A program made the translations under genes and the position numbers. A stretch of 41,015 nt of DNA, from IMG/VR virus record IMGVR_UViG_3300022752_000150, positions 1 to 41,015 of that record, one strand, 5' to 3'. Positions 7,491 to 13,824 of this stretch are shown here, piece by piece. The notes below the pieces were generated by a model. That model ran no database searches. It saw only the letters and a program-made list of their open reading frames with translations, and was not told the DNA's origin. Each line of letters begins with the position of its first letter. The first letter of the stretch is position 1. The stretch is from a virus.

Positions 7491-7518
7491 TTGACAATTG
7501 CCGAAGTTACTGTATAAT
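7491..7518 (+). promoter_or_regulatory. Consensus sigma70 promoter
   Basis: TTGACA (7491-7496) and TATAAT (7513-7518) match consensus at all 12 positions with a 16-nt spacer. The expected start, near 7525, gives a short leader with GGAGAG before ATG 7546. This is likely one of the strongest early promoters here. Confidence 0.85.
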
Positions 7519-7545
7519 GGAAACATACTGAGAACGGAGAGATAA

Positions 7546-7875
7546 ATGGCAAAGTTACTGATTTCTACCCAAGTTTATGAGAACTACGGTGCCCATGATT
7601 GGGATGGCGAAGGTGAGTGCCCCCAATACTGGAAGGCCAAGGGCGGTAACGATTATGTTGTGAAAAATTTTACGGCATTCAACGCCGTTCCTTCATACAT
7701 CATGGTTCTTCAAGACCAAATTGAAGTCAACAATGAATTTTGTCGTGAGCACATTCTGGATTGGGAAGTGGTTGCCGACGATTACCTGACCCAATTTGAG
7801 CGAGACCAATTGGAGTATGAGGGTAAAATAACTTTCCCGGCTGTAGAATTGACCTACGGCGGATCATTACGTTAA
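7546..7875 (+). CDS. Small phage protein of unknown function
   Basis: The 109-residue protein begins with MAKLLISTQVYENYGAHDW and continues with GECPQYWKAKGGNDYVV. I recall this sequence type from many phages, always uncharacterised. It is acidic and aromatic, with no membrane segment or metal-binding cluster. A consensus promoter and a GGAGAG ribosome-binding site suggest high early expression. It probably leads an operon with the 132-aa protein 17 nt downstream. Confidence 0.8.
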   Translation: MAKLLISTQVYENYGAHDWDGEGECPQYWKAKGGNDYVVKNFTAFNAVPSYIMVLQDQIEVNNEFCREHILDWEVVADDYLTQFERDQLEYEGKITFPAVELTYGGSLR

Positions 7876-7892
7876 TTTTTGGAGTTTATATT

Positions 7893-9346: not shown

Positions 9347-9916
9347 GTGAACCTCTTTTATTTATCGCCTGACCCCAAGATATGTGCCGAAATGCATTTA
9401 GATAAACATGTTACCAAAATGATTATCGAATACGGCCAACTAATGTCTACGGCTCATCGGTTTCTTGACGGTAAACCATATACCGATAAAACGGCTAATG
9501 GCCGGTCAATTCAACGGTGGCGTATGGAAGATCCAAAACTTGAAGAATCTTTGATGAAGGCTTCTCACATTAATCACCCTTCGGCTATTTGGACTCGGTC
9601 TAATCGTTCTAATTATATTTGGTTTCATCAAATGTGGTTTTACTTGTGTAAAGAATATACTTATCGTTATGAAAAAATCCATTCGGTTGAAACAAGGTTG
9701 TCGGATGTGTTATACTTACCACCAGTAAATATTTCAACCGGTGATTTTTATCCGCCAACGCCCGCTATGCCCGATGAGTGTAAAGTACCAAATAACTCCC
9801 TCGCATCTTACCACAAATACTACATAGAACGTAAGAGCCATTTCGCAAAGTGGACTAAACGACAAGTACCATTGTGGTATGATGAAGGGATGAAACAACA
9901 TAATGCCAACGTATAA
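9347..9916 (+). CDS. Conserved T4-like phage protein of unknown function
   Basis: I chose GTG 9347, with GGAG 7 nt upstream, over an earlier in-frame TTG (9335) that lies in the leader hairpin. The 189-residue product begins NLFYLSPDPKICAEMHLDKH and has CAEMHLDKHVTKMIIEYGQL then MSTAHR, followed by HINHPSAIWTRSNRSNYIWF and a tyrosine/tryptophan-rich helix. The conserved His, Asp, Lys and Arg residues suggest an enzyme, but I cannot name its reaction. The family occurs in other T4-like phages. It follows a candidate structured leader and overlaps the next gene by 14 nt. Confidence 0.75.
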   Translation: MNLFYLSPDPKICAEMHLDKHVTKMIIEYGQLMSTAHRFLDGKPYTDKTANGRSIQRWRMEDPKLEESLMKASHINHPSAIWTRSNRSNYIWFHQMWFYLCKEYTYRYEKIHSVETRLSDVLYLPPVNISTGDFYPPTPAMPDECKVPNNSLASYHKYYIERKSHFAKWTKRQVPLWYDEGMKQHNANV

Positions 9917-10199
9917 ATTTTTAAACACCGAAACAGGTGAAGAGTTTGAAGATTTTTTGACCAATTCACGGAAGATTGAATTGCTTGAAAAGAATTCGCA
10001 TATACAGCAAATGCCTGTTATGTTTGCAATTACAAGTATGGTCGGAAGTTTTGATTCAAAGACCGATGATACATGGAAAGAAGTATTGTCAAAAGTTGCT
10101 GAGGCTCATCCAGACAGTGAAGTAGCTAAACGTCATGGTAAGAGGACGATTCACCAGGCTAAAGCTCATGACATATACACTAAATGGAAGAATTCTTAA
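9903..10199 (+). CDS. Conserved small T4-like phage protein
   Basis: The 98-residue protein begins MPTYKFLNTETGEEFEDFLT and continues RKIELLEKNSHIQQMP. The N-terminus resembles FmdB-like small domains but lacks the Cys pairs of that zinc ribbon. The rest is helical with a basic C-terminus (KRHGKRTIHQAKAHDIYTKW). This type is common in T4-like phages, with unknown function. It overlaps the upstream gene by 14 nt and is followed 1 nt later by an exonuclease gene. Confidence 0.7.
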   Translation: MPTYKFLNTETGEEFEDFLTNSRKIELLEKNSHIQQMPVMFAITSMVGSFDSKTDDTWKEVLSKVAEAHPDSEVAKRHGKRTIHQAKAHDIYTKWKNS

Positions 10200-10200
10200 C

Positions 10201-10848
10201 TTGCGTAATTTTGAATTTGTAAAATTAGACTCATTAAACTTCGATCTAAAAAGTGTAACAACTGAAGAAGGCAGAGTATATGAAACACCTTCGGGTGCTA
10301 AGTATCGTTCTGTCACTACGGTTCTTTCATCATACAACAAAAAGGCTATCTATGAATGGCGCCAAAGAGTTGGTGATGAAGAGGCTAATCGTATTTCAAA
10401 AACAGCATCAGGCCGTGGAACAAGGCTCCATTCGGTTTGTGAAAAATATCTATTGAATGAAAACGTAAAGATGATGCCCGACACTCAAGAGTTATTTCTT
10501 CAGTTAAAACCACATATCGATCAAAACATTGGTAAGATTTATGGTATTGAACAATCGCTTTACAGTGACCGTTTAAAAATAGCAGGTCGTTGTGATTGTA
10601 TTGCTGAATGGAACGGTGAACTTTCTATTGTTGACTATAAAACTTCAAGTAGAGAAAAAGATGAAGATGACATATTGAATTATTTTATGCAATGTACAGC
10701 CTATGCGGAAATGTTTGAAGAACGCACTGGAATGCCAATTAATCAAATCGTTATTGCTATGGCTGTCGTTGGAGAATCTATTCCCCAGATATTTGTGAGA
10801 GAAAAGCATAAATATATTGGTGAACTGATGAAGTATATTGCTGTATGA
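10201..10848 (+). CDS. PD-(D/E)XK exonuclease (MGME1-like phage exonuclease)
   Basis: The 215-residue nuclease has the catalytic set D132 (AGRCDC), D145 and K147 (IVDYKTS) and Q164 (MQCTAY). An upstream GRGT..H element (71-77) and E118 (GIEQSL) are typical of MGME1/PDDEXK_1 single-strand exonucleases of phages. I chose TTG 10201 because the protein then starts MRNFEFVKL, as I recall for relatives, and because the frame upstream to ATG 10135 would overlap the previous gene by 65 nt. It probably trims DNA ends in recombination or replication. Its last bases may overlap the 5' end of the tmRNA precursor. Confidence 0.82.
   Translation: MRNFEFVKLDSLNFDLKSVTTEEGRVYETPSGAKYRSVTTVLSSYNKKAIYEWRQRVGDEEANRISKTASGRGTRLHSVCEKYLLNENVKMMPDTQELFLQLKPHIDQNIGKIYGIEQSLYSDRLKIAGRCDCIAEWNGELSIVDYKTSSREKDEDDILNYFMQCTAYAEMFEERTGMPINQIVIAMAVVGESIPQIFVREKHKYIGELMKYIAV
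10807..10814 (+). promoter_or_regulatory. Possible late promoter CATAAATA before tmRNA
   Basis: CATAAATA lies inside the exonuclease gene about 60 nt before the tmRNA acceptor arm. It could supply late tmRNA transcription, but it also reads as ordinary codons (H-K-Y), so support is weak. Confidence 0.25.
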
Positions 10849-10900
10849 AGTTGAAGGAAAAGTGTTTCGGACGGCGGTTCGAATCCGCCCAGGTCCACCA

Positions 10901-11019
10901 AAAGCATGGCAGCGAAAGACGCCTAACCAGCGACCCTACCTACAAGGGAGAATACGGTGAATGATAAATTGTTGTGGTGACAATTGTATGTGTTCACGCC
11001 GCAGTAGGATGCTTTTGAT
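10901..11019 (+). other. tmRNA intervening segment removed on maturation (predicted)
   Basis: This spacer lies between the encoded CCA and the 5' G of the coding piece. AAAGCAT (10901-10907) pairs with ATGCTTT (11009-11015), extending the acceptor stem of the precursor, and an inner hairpin AATGT-type stem (AATTGT 10967-10972 with ACAATT 10980-10985) fills the loop. Host RNase P and tRNA 3' processing enzymes would be expected to excise it. Confidence 0.6.
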
Positions 11020-11105
11020 GGGCCTGTACTGGTTTCGACGGGACAAAAAGTACGGATATGGACAGCACGGTAGGCGATGACCGTAAATCAAGCAAAACGA
11101 TAAAT

Positions 11106-11138
11106 GCAAACGATGAACGTTTCATTTTAGCAGCATAA
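11106..11138 (+). other. tmRNA tag-peptide reading frame
   Basis: The resume codon GCA starts the frame A-N-D-E-R-F-I-L-A-A followed by TAA. The ANDE start and LAA end are the hallmarks of proteobacterial tmRNA tags; a C-terminal LAA/IAA-type end is what ClpXP recognises. An isoleucine replaces the alanine more usual before LAA in betaproteobacterial tags. Confidence 0.9.
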
Positions 11139-11215
11139 ACACTGCTTAGGGTTTTGGTGGATTTCCTCGTAACAGAATAATCCACCACTTTAACACATAA
11201 ACACAGGAGAAACTT

Positions 11216-11485
11216 ATGTCTAATATGACACCCTTTGAAATCCGTCTAGAATTGCTGAAGTTAGCAAAAGAACTTTTAGAACAGGATTATCATTCAAAAC
11301 GTGAAGTGATTCACAACAATTGGCAAGTAGCAACAGAAAATGCTCGCACACAGGGAAAGGAGCTTCCAAACCAACCGGAATATCCATCTTTTCCATCCGA
11401 AACTGAAATCATAAACAAGGCACAAATATTGAATGGCTTCGTTTCGCAAATTCCCACAGCAGTAGATAAACCGAATAAGAAGTAA
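11216..11485 (+). CDS. Small helical phage protein of unknown function
   Basis: The 89-residue protein has an N-terminal helix (MTPFEIRLELLKLAKELLEQ), then DYHSKREVIHNNWQVATENA, a proline-rich hinge (PNQPEYPSFPSETEI) and a short C-terminal helix. I recall this type from T4-like environmental phages as uncharacterised. ATG 11216 has CAGGAG upstream. It lies immediately after the tmRNA and before a strong terminator, so it may be transcribed with the tmRNA. Confidence 0.75.
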   Translation: MSNMTPFEIRLELLKLAKELLEQDYHSKREVIHNNWQVATENARTQGKELPNQPEYPSFPSETEIINKAQILNGFVSQIPTAVDKPNKK

Positions 11486-11499
11486 TAGGTTGCCATAGA

Positions 11500-11520
11500 G
11501 AGCCGCTTCGGCGGCTTTTA
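11500..11520 (+). terminator. Rho-independent terminator
   Basis: AGCCGC (11501-11506), loop TTCG and GCGGCT (11511-11516) are followed by TTT. The UUCG tetraloop and GC stem are a classic terminator, ending the unit with tmRNA and the 89-aa gene. Confidence 0.85.
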
Positions 11521-11532
11521 GAGAGGAGAAAA

Positions 11533-12090
11533 ATGGCAAGTAAAAACCCAATTATCAAATTGGTGTTGTCATCTTTTATCATCATGTTATCTATGAACAA
11601 TGTTAATACATATGCTGTGACGCCAATTAAGGCATCATTTGAGACACTGACACCAAAAGCTAAAAAACAAATATCATGTTTAGCTGAAAATATTTACTTT
11701 GAAGCTGCAAATGAACCTTATGAAGGTAAAATTGCTGTAGCCTTTGTTACATTAAATAGATTGATGACTGGCAACTATGCTGACACTATTTGTGGCGTTG
11801 TTGCTCAAAAGATAAAGGGCACATGTCAATTTTCATGGTACTGTGACCAAAAAATTGTGAACCAGCGCTTGACAATTCGTAACACTCCGTTGTATAATGA
11901 TATTCTGCATTTATCAACTTATGTTTATTTAAATTTACATCAATTGAAAGACGTTACTCATGGAGCAACATTCTATCATGCTGACTATGTAAACCCCGGA
12001 TGGAAATTGAAGAAACAAACCAAAATAGGTAGGCATATTTTTTATAAGAGAAATGGAGATCAAATTGACCGAAGTAGGATTGTTATATAA
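11533..12090 (+). CDS. SleB/CwlJ-type cell-wall hydrolase with signal peptide (endolysin candidate)
   Basis: The 185-residue protein has a Sec-type signal (basic start, hydrophobic IIKLVLSSFIIMLSM at about 7-21, likely cleavage near residue 28). A Hydrolase_2/SleB domain follows: CLAENIYFEAANEPYEGKIA with acidic residues E52 and E57, AVAFVTLNR, then CQFSWYCD and GATFYHADYV. Members cleave peptidoglycan as lytic transglycosylases or amidases. A signal peptide implies export without a holin or as a signal-arrest-release enzyme, so it is the best lysis-enzyme candidate here. GAGGAGAAAA precedes ATG 11533, just after a terminator; no clear promoter for it was seen. Confidence 0.85.
   Translation: MASKNPIIKLVLSSFIIMLSMNNVNTYAVTPIKASFETLTPKAKKQISCLAENIYFEAANEPYEGKIAVAFVTLNRLMTGNYADTICGVVAQKIKGTCQFSWYCDQKIVNQRLTIRNTPLYNDILHLSTYVYLNLHQLKDVTHGATFYHADYVNPGWKLKKQTKIGRHIFYKRNGDQIDRSRIVI
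11869..11898 (+). promoter_or_regulatory. Possible internal sigma70 promoter
   Basis: TTGACA (11869-11874) and TATAAT (11893-11898) are exact consensus boxes with an 18-nt spacer, inside the hydrolase gene. It could drive the 12111 gene and, downstream, genes 33 and 59. Because it overlaps coding sequence, the call is tentative. Confidence 0.5.
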
Positions 12091-12663: not shown

Positions 12664-13277
12664 TTACTGGCTATGAAGCCTTTGGTATTTTTCAGGCTCT
12701 CAAGTTACATTTTACAACCGACAATTATGATTTCTTTAAGTACCACGGCAAAAGTAAAATCTCCGTAAACTCTTTTGAAATTCGTAAAGACAAGTATCAT
12801 TTCTATAAGTTATCTCGTAGGTTGCCAAATAAAGAGGAACTGATTCTCTTTATCGTGGCCAATCTGATACACAATGATAACTTATGGGTCGGTGATTTAT
12901 TGACCGAGGAGTCCGAGACTATATTTCGAGAGCGTCAAAAGGTCATACAAAGCCTATCTTACACCTTCGAAAATGATTGTCGCCGTATTCTCGATGGTGT
13001 AAGTGACCCCAATGAAATTTTGCAAAGTGATGACGGCGACTATCCGATTCTTCTTCGCAAAACTTTACAGAAAGATATACAAATTGAAACTTTGTGTATA
13101 CTTAATTTAATTCTTAATTTTTTTCCAATGTGGACAAAGAAAATTGAAGATACTATTCGATGGCCCGCATATCGAAGAAAAGTGCTTAAGTTTGCCGCAT
13201 TTTTAACCTATGATGATGTAAAATATAAGTCTCTATTAAAGAAGGTGATAGAAGAAAATGAAAACGTTATTTTTTAG
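12660..13277 (+). CDS. 59: Helicase loader gp59
   Basis: gp59 loads the gp41 replicative helicase onto gp32-coated forks. The 205-residue protein resembles T4 gp59 (217 aa) in N-terminal YEAFGIFQALKLHFTTDNYDF and YHGKSKISVNSFEIRKDKYH, in FYKLSRRLPNKEELILFIVA and ANLIHNDNLWVGDL, and in all-helical character. Neighbours 33 (overlapping upstream) and 32 (downstream) agree with T4 order. Its last 11 bases overlap the 3' end of an antisense homing endonuclease gene, so that element landed exactly at the end of 59. Confidence 0.85.
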   Translation: MITGYEAFGIFQALKLHFTTDNYDFFKYHGKSKISVNSFEIRKDKYHFYKLSRRLPNKEELILFIVANLIHNDNLWVGDLLTEESETIFRERQKVIQSLSYTFENDCRRILDGVSDPNEILQSDDGDYPILLRKTLQKDIQIETLCILNLILNFFPMWTKKIEDTIRWPAYRRKVLKFAAFLTYDDVKYKSLLKKVIEENENVIF

Positions 13278-13824
13278 GCAACATGCCTTGTTTCCAATCT
13301 TTCGGTGGGTTTTTAGTTAGAACTTGTGTATGTCCGTTATTGTACCACTTACAACCTTTTGTTGTTGGTCTTTGATTGATTCTACCTAATGTCCATTTGT
13401 TTCCTGGGTGAAACGAACAGAATTTATTATTTTTTCCATCATTATACCATTTACTTTTTTTATTTCTTTCGGATATTGTTTGTGATTGTAGTGATTTGTT
13501 TTTTTCTGATTGTTTCTTACCGAAGGTGCCTTCACCACCTTCGGTCAAATTATAACCATTTTTAAAACTTTGAAATTCTTTTATGAAAAGTGGTTCCATC
13601 TCTTTTAGGGTGTGATCTTTTTCCTTTGATTGGTATATGACTTCCCACTTAAAATTATCCCAACCATATTTTTTAATAGCTAAATGTAATGCTGAGTGTT
13701 TGGCTTTATTTGATCTGAATTTATAAAAATGCGAAATCATTCTCTTCGGCCATTGTGAATCAAAGCCGATATATATTTTGTTGTTAATTTTATTTGTTAC
13801 TTTGTAGATGGAATAAATATTCAT
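13267..13824 (-). CDS. GIY-YIG homing endonuclease (free-standing)
   Basis: The 185-residue protein has an N-terminal GIY-YIG nuclease (NIYSIYKVTNKINNKIYIGF, R28 region PKRMISHF, acidic KEMEPLFIKEF). The C-terminal DNA-binding part carries two copies of a K-W-Y-N-D/N-G motif (SKWYNDGKNNKF and CKWYNNGHTQV), typical of phage Seg-like endonucleases. It lies antisense between 59 and a nucleotidase gene. A perfect TATAAATA lies 59 nt upstream on its strand, and TAAGGA is just before ATG. T4 seg genes are likewise often late or antisense. It is selfish mobile DNA, probably cutting phages that lack it. Confidence 0.88.
   Translation of the reverse strand: MNIYSIYKVTNKINNKIYIGFDSQWPKRMISHFYKFRSNKAKHSALHLAIKKYGWDNFKWEVIYQSKEKDHTLKEMEPLFIKEFQSFKNGYNLTEGGEGTFGKKQSEKNKSLQSQTISERNKKSKWYNDGKNNKFCSFHPGNKWTLGRINQRPTTKGCKWYNNGHTQVLTKNPPKDWKQGMLPKK

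Follow-up and report, generated by a model that had tools for sequence, protein, structure and literature searches.

The tmRNA (ssrA) genes of Mycobacterium phage Bxz1 and Bacillus phage G are presumably one-piece, unpermuted genes. Like the gene described here, they are carried by phages (PMC4131195). Two-piece tmRNAs of T4-like aquatic phages were published in 2022, for phage Melnitz and others, in a survey in which 53 of 133 phage tmRNA structures were of the two-piece kind and 50 of those 53 were marine or aquatic (PMC9004378). A database of 2025, the source of the Rfam family RF04321, contains 79 phage tmRNAs, and the intervening sequences treated in the accompanying paper include one that carries a tRNA-Ala and another that carries a repetitive element (PMC11915505).

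Among the closest known systems is Melnitz itself (EXVC044M; MZ577097), a T4-like Methylophilales phage of the Kyanoviridae with a permuted, two-piece tmRNA (PMC9004378). That tmRNA lies a short distance downstream of the exonuclease gene that also precedes the tmRNA in the DNA analyzed here, with two small open reading frames (ORFs) between them, and near genes for a late-transcription coactivator, a helicase loader, and a single-strand binding protein, as is also the case here. The two loci differ in the type of tmRNA, which in Melnitz is alpha (RF01849) with the tag ANDNYVPVDYALAA and here is beta, as well as in what surrounds and interrupts it: Melnitz has a glutamine riboswitch after the tmRNA and a small ORF in the linker, whereas the present locus has neither such an ORF nor, across positions 10300-11700, an Rfam match to that riboswitch. 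Two-piece phage tmRNA as a kind is thus already known, and the present locus adds a clearly intact beta-type example to it. What seems to be new is the exchange of tmRNA types and the nesting of small genes in the linkers of related phages, topics on which a literature search, itself incomplete, found no paper.

Anatomy of the Permuted Gene

The DNA analyzed (the window) is a 41-kb virus fragment of 41,015 nucleotides. Its only tmRNA gene, complete and circularly permuted, occupies positions 10839-11192 of the plus strand (Table 1). The gene matches the permuted-tmRNA model RF04321 over its full length (model positions 1-213; 141.1 bits, E 7e-28, gathering score 47) and the beta-type model RF01850, best of its clan, with 127.1 bits (E 1.5e-38, cut-off 84), the score that assigns it to the beta-type subgroup; no other Rfam family reaches its gathering score at the locus. 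ARAGORN, independently of Rfam, also calls a permuted tmRNA with the tag ANDERFILAA. The features that define RF04321 at the level of sequence and structure are found, with the acceptor piece upstream of the coding piece, an acceptor stem that joins the two, and a resume codon, tag frame, and stop codon. These three lines of evidence agree with the sequence-only reading of this DNA, which had described an apparently complete two-piece tmRNA in a T4-like phage and had proposed running the permuted-tmRNA covariance models that match here far beyond chance. Its finer description is likewise exact, including a perfect T arm, a 7-bp acceptor pairing, and the presence of CTGGTTTCGACGGG, the H5 stem, and the tag frame.

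Table 1. Features of the permuted tmRNA gene and of the two genes upstream of it
Feature	Position in window	Strand	Basis or remark
Transcription regulator-like gene, probably late transcription coactivator	9903..10199	+	PHROG 385; putative gene 33 counterpart
Exonuclease, 237 aa, directly upstream of tmRNA	10135..10848	+	PHROG 298; PD-(D/E)XK via Melnitz counterpart
Precursor 5' end region	10839..10846	+	Start of RF04321 match, with consensus pairs
P2 strand of acceptor piece, TGTTTCG	10863..10869	+	7/7 pairs with CGGGACA at 11039-11045
Acceptor piece	10873..10900	+	T arm, acceptor 3' strand, A73, CCA
T arm: stem GGCGG/CCGCC, loop TTCGAAT	10873-10889	+	Sequence
Acceptor 3' strand CAGGTCC	10890-10896	+	Sequence
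Discriminator A73 and encoded CCA	10897-10900	+	Sequence
Linker, 119 nt, removable intervening sequence	10901..11019	+	Predicted absent from mature tmRNA
Linker closing stem, 5' arm AAAGCAT	10901..10907	+	Covariation, 49 sequences
Linker closing stem, 3' arm ATGCTTT	11009..11015	+	Covariation
Conserved TGAT ahead of predicted RNase P site	11016-11019	+	Also in bacterial beta-type genes
Acceptor 5' strand GGGCCTG, start of coding piece	11020..11026	+	7/7 pairs with CAGGTCC, including G3.U70
D-like loop TACTGGTTTCGA and P2 strand CGGGACA	11027..11045	+	Rfam; pairing
CTGGTTTCGACGGG	11029-11042	+	Sequence
Tag reading frame GCA..TAA, peptide ANDERFILAA	11106..11138	+	ARAGORN; pN/pS
H5, 3' terminal hairpin GGTGGAT/ATCCACC	11156-11162 / 11180-11186	+	RF01850 alignment

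The G3.U70 pair is the alanine identity element, the determinant recognized by alanyl-tRNA synthetase (AlaRS). At the 5' end of the precursor, TGCTGT could pair with ACAGCA at 11063-11068 as a distal part of P2, to judge from the letters; the predicted fold of the whole precursor (z -1.15) is not informative. The betaproteobacterial genes that match RF01850, such as that of Cupriavidus (L229), have the same T stem and acceptor letters as the window and share with it a tag of the ANDE..LAA type, the linker closing stem, and the TGAT. The closest bacterial coding pieces found, from Burkholderiales, are about 80% identical to that of the window. Similarity of the tmRNA suggests, at most, a betaproteobacterium with permuted tmRNA as host.

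Genomic Setting and Conservation

The gene sits in a T4-type cluster that runs, in order, through a DNA-binding protein, the transcription regulator, the exonuclease, the tmRNA, a small ORF, endolysin, helicase loader, a homing endonuclease, and single-strand binding protein, to be followed by baseplate genes. Among the matches listed for the exonuclease and the single-strand binding protein, most are to cyanophages and other T4-like phages, and all of those listed for the exonuclease are below 60% identity. The homing endonuclease gene, of GIY-YIG type, lies on the minus strand at 13267-13824, between the genes for helicase loader and single-strand binding protein. A perfect sigma-70 consensus, TTGACA-18-TATAAT, is present at 11869-11898 within the endolysin ORF.

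Comparison of the whole locus by blastn with 50,697 phage records gave nothing useful, and relatives were found instead through the protein sequence of the neighboring exonuclease; a first survey of them yielded 57 distinct tmRNA versions. A permuted tmRNA is the rule at this locus in the phage group, being present at 70 of the 83 loci with the exonuclease, that of Melnitz among them. The 13 loci that have none comprise 11 in two clades, one for which only 804 nt of downstream sequence are available, and that of phage C48C1. The search of related phages that the sequence-only reading had suggested therefore shows the tmRNA to be regular equipment in a large group of aquatic T4-like phages. Such persistence speaks for a real use in infection; the two clades of close relatives that do without the gene indicate that it is not essential to the group. 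Its description as unusual for a lytic T4-like phage is too strong and only partly right, given these counts and those already published (PMC9004378).

SmpB (PF01668) was absent from 31 phage records, which included Melnitz and the 149.6-kb contig of L304 (the window record is a fragment); in a control the same search found SmpB in 10 of 14 genomes. A trans-translation system in the sense of tmRNA together with SmpB in the same phage was thus not found in these records, and the host presumably supplies SmpB as well as AlaRS and RNase P.

Selection on Structure and Tag

Covariation among the relatives is extensive, with 97.7% of 1274 cells paired, two-sided changes in 21 of 26 pairs, and none of 500 shuffles reaching the observed level, figures that are to be read with the knowledge that acceptor- and T-stem pairing, CCA, and a tag-shaped frame were search criteria, not independent tests, and that the register of P2 was chosen for its pairing, which biases its covariation. 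The only unbiased test is accordingly that of the linker closing stem, in which all seven pairs show two-sided changes and 93.9% of cells are paired among 49 sequences. G3.U70, A73, and CCA are invariant in the relatives extracted (CCA and full acceptor pairing being among the search criteria).

The codon changes of the tag indicate that its frame evolves as protein: pN/pS is 0.26 in frame compared with 1.60 and 1.26 in the other two frames, although the pattern used to find these sequences was itself tag-shaped, which depresses pN in the terminal codons. The C-termini of the tags in the relatives are mostly LAA or MAA.

Proposed Function and Alternatives

With a probability of roughly 80%, the phage has at this locus a functional ssrA gene of its own, permuted and with a tRNA-like core of beta type, that serves ribosome rescue and tagging driven by host factors. 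A single precursor would be transcribed together with the exonuclease operon, and its linker would fold back beside the acceptor stem through the closing stem and the TGAT. Host RNase P would then cut after the TGAT, before GGGCCTG, and 3' processing would free the encoded CCA, leaving two RNAs that pairing in the acceptor stem and P2 would hold together. Host AlaRS may charge this tmRNA by way of G3.U70, and host SmpB may bring it to ribosomes that have stalled on truncated mRNA, with the ANDERFILAA tag expected to mark the product for host proteases. The phage would probably gain added rescue capacity at a time when host mRNA is being degraded and translation is under load from the infection.

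A role in rescuing or recycling ribosomes during infection, as proposed for the Melnitz tmRNA (PMC9004378), is close to what the sequence-only reading had put forward and is plausible here. The assignment of that role to late infection lacks support, as no T4-type late promoter motif (TATAAATA) occurs near the tmRNA gene, nor is the motif enriched across the window.

A use of the tmRNA mainly as a weapon, by which host proteins or particular proteins would be tagged for degradation and amino acid recycling rather than translation being maintained, was put forward for Melnitz by its authors (PMC9004378), and the resemblance of the tag C-termini to protease signals is in keeping with it. It is nevertheless improbable here, as tmRNA acts on stalled ribosomes with no known means of choosing host proteins and nothing in the sequence confers such selectivity. 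Still less likely is a role of the RNA as a decoy, titrating SmpB and thereby inhibiting host trans-translation, as was suggested for mycobacteriophage DS6A. Precedent exists in the reduced tmRNA of that phage, an RNA of the tRNA-like domain only (PMC4131195, PMC11915505), but a decoy needs no tag frame, stop codon, resume region, or H5, all of which are kept at this locus, and conservation of the tag as protein would be needless for it. That ssrA is a common site of bacterial integration, as is well established (see also PMC9004378), might suggest a passive remnant, left when an integrated phage excised imprecisely, or a functionless chance capture, a notion that is scarcely credible for a complete, covarying gene at a locus conserved over a large T4-like group, where repeated exchange rather than decay is seen and no integrase occurs among the subset of ORFs scanned.

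Exchange of tmRNA Bodies

How the functional gene favored above has varied among its relatives is illustrated by the nearest relative found, L026 (IMG/VR contig 3300023179_000952). Over most of the region corresponding to about 6.2-13.1 kb of the window, the two are about 91-100% identical per 100-base block, and mostly 97-100%. They share acceptor stem, tag, and H5, but the body between these, at window positions of about 10859-11100, is in L026 of alpha type (RF01849), with the T loop GGCAGTA. Positions 7491-7890 of the window, which hold a 109-aa ORF (7546-7875), are also missing from L026. The alpha segment of L026 occurs in one contig only, so that an assembly chimera is possible and this single case is no proof of exchange. 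If genuine, a pair of phages so alike in everything but the body of the tmRNA would permit a direct test of whether phage tmRNA is matched to host SmpB or AlaRS.

The switches of type seen across the group stand regardless, as they are independent of L026. On the tree of the exonuclease, the class of T loop changes at least 12 times among three classes. A patchwork pattern also recurs when other pairs are compared by segment, for example L058 and L061, which are 90% identical in the exonuclease, 98% in the acceptor piece, 43% in the linker, 94% in the coding part, and 96% downstream. At 19 phage loci (e.g. L003, L040, and L057) the T loop is TGCRAAT, with G at position 55; this loop was found neither in 289 bacterial genomes of one class (alphaproteobacterial by its centre) nor in 300 genomes of one order (Burkholderiales by its centre), few of which have permuted genes.

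It is fairly probable, on this evidence and that of the linkers, that the permuted ssrA of aquatic T4-like phages is a modular cassette in which alpha and beta bodies are exchanged among phages that are otherwise nearly identical and whose linker, discarded on maturation, nests small genes that would be translated from either the precursor or the excised piece. The window shows the exchange of bodies and has no nested gene.

Linkers and Putative Nested Genes

The intervening sequences of these phage genes range from 15 to 214 nt, as compared with 4-65 nt in the main set of bacterial linkers examined, those of beta type included, and 119 nt in the window; five longer bacterial linkers were viewed separately, one of them 232 nt long and visibly repetitive. 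At least 95 nt is reached by 22 of 59 phage linker clusters, and in 17 of these 22 an ATG at offset 9-21 opens a frame of at least 25 codons, where shuffled sequences gave 0.87 on average and never more than 5 in 1000 trials. Clusters that carry such an ORF number 19, of which 14 have a Shine-Dalgarno-like site, as compared with 2 of 39 others (p 1e-7). From these frames and sites, most long linkers of the relatives appear to hold a small protein gene.

One such ORF lies in the ssrA linker of Melnitz (L105:5237-5378), where GenBank annotates SsrA alone, and others occur in L033, L044, L053, L065, L082, and further relatives. In the Melnitz group the predicted peptide (..KYLSG..; in Melnitz MFKWLSK...KYLSG) is conserved, with pN/pS of 0.43 in frame and 0.90 and 1.09 in the other frames, in an alignment made on the protein and hence slightly biased toward the frame. 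About 1 kb downstream of the tmRNA, L078-L088 carry a stretch with 79% identity to the linker ORF of L033, and immediately ahead of its tmRNA L051 carries one with 56% identity to the linker ORF of L053; both ORFs therefore resemble ordinary small genes of phages that have changed place. If true, protein genes in linkers would be a new way to pack genes, and one may ask how translation of the linker is compatible with cleavage of the precursor.

The linker of the window has no ORF of the kind found in the relatives, no Rfam match, and a predicted fold no more stable than that of shuffled sequences (z -0.18). Its start is shared with the linker of L304, and comparison with L004 reveals a compensatory hairpin change from CCCU/AGGG to CCCC/GGGG. 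In the linker of L065, a second acceptor-like stretch (TGATGGGTCAGCCAGGTTCACCA) seems to follow the 27-aa ORF, perhaps a trace of past recombination.
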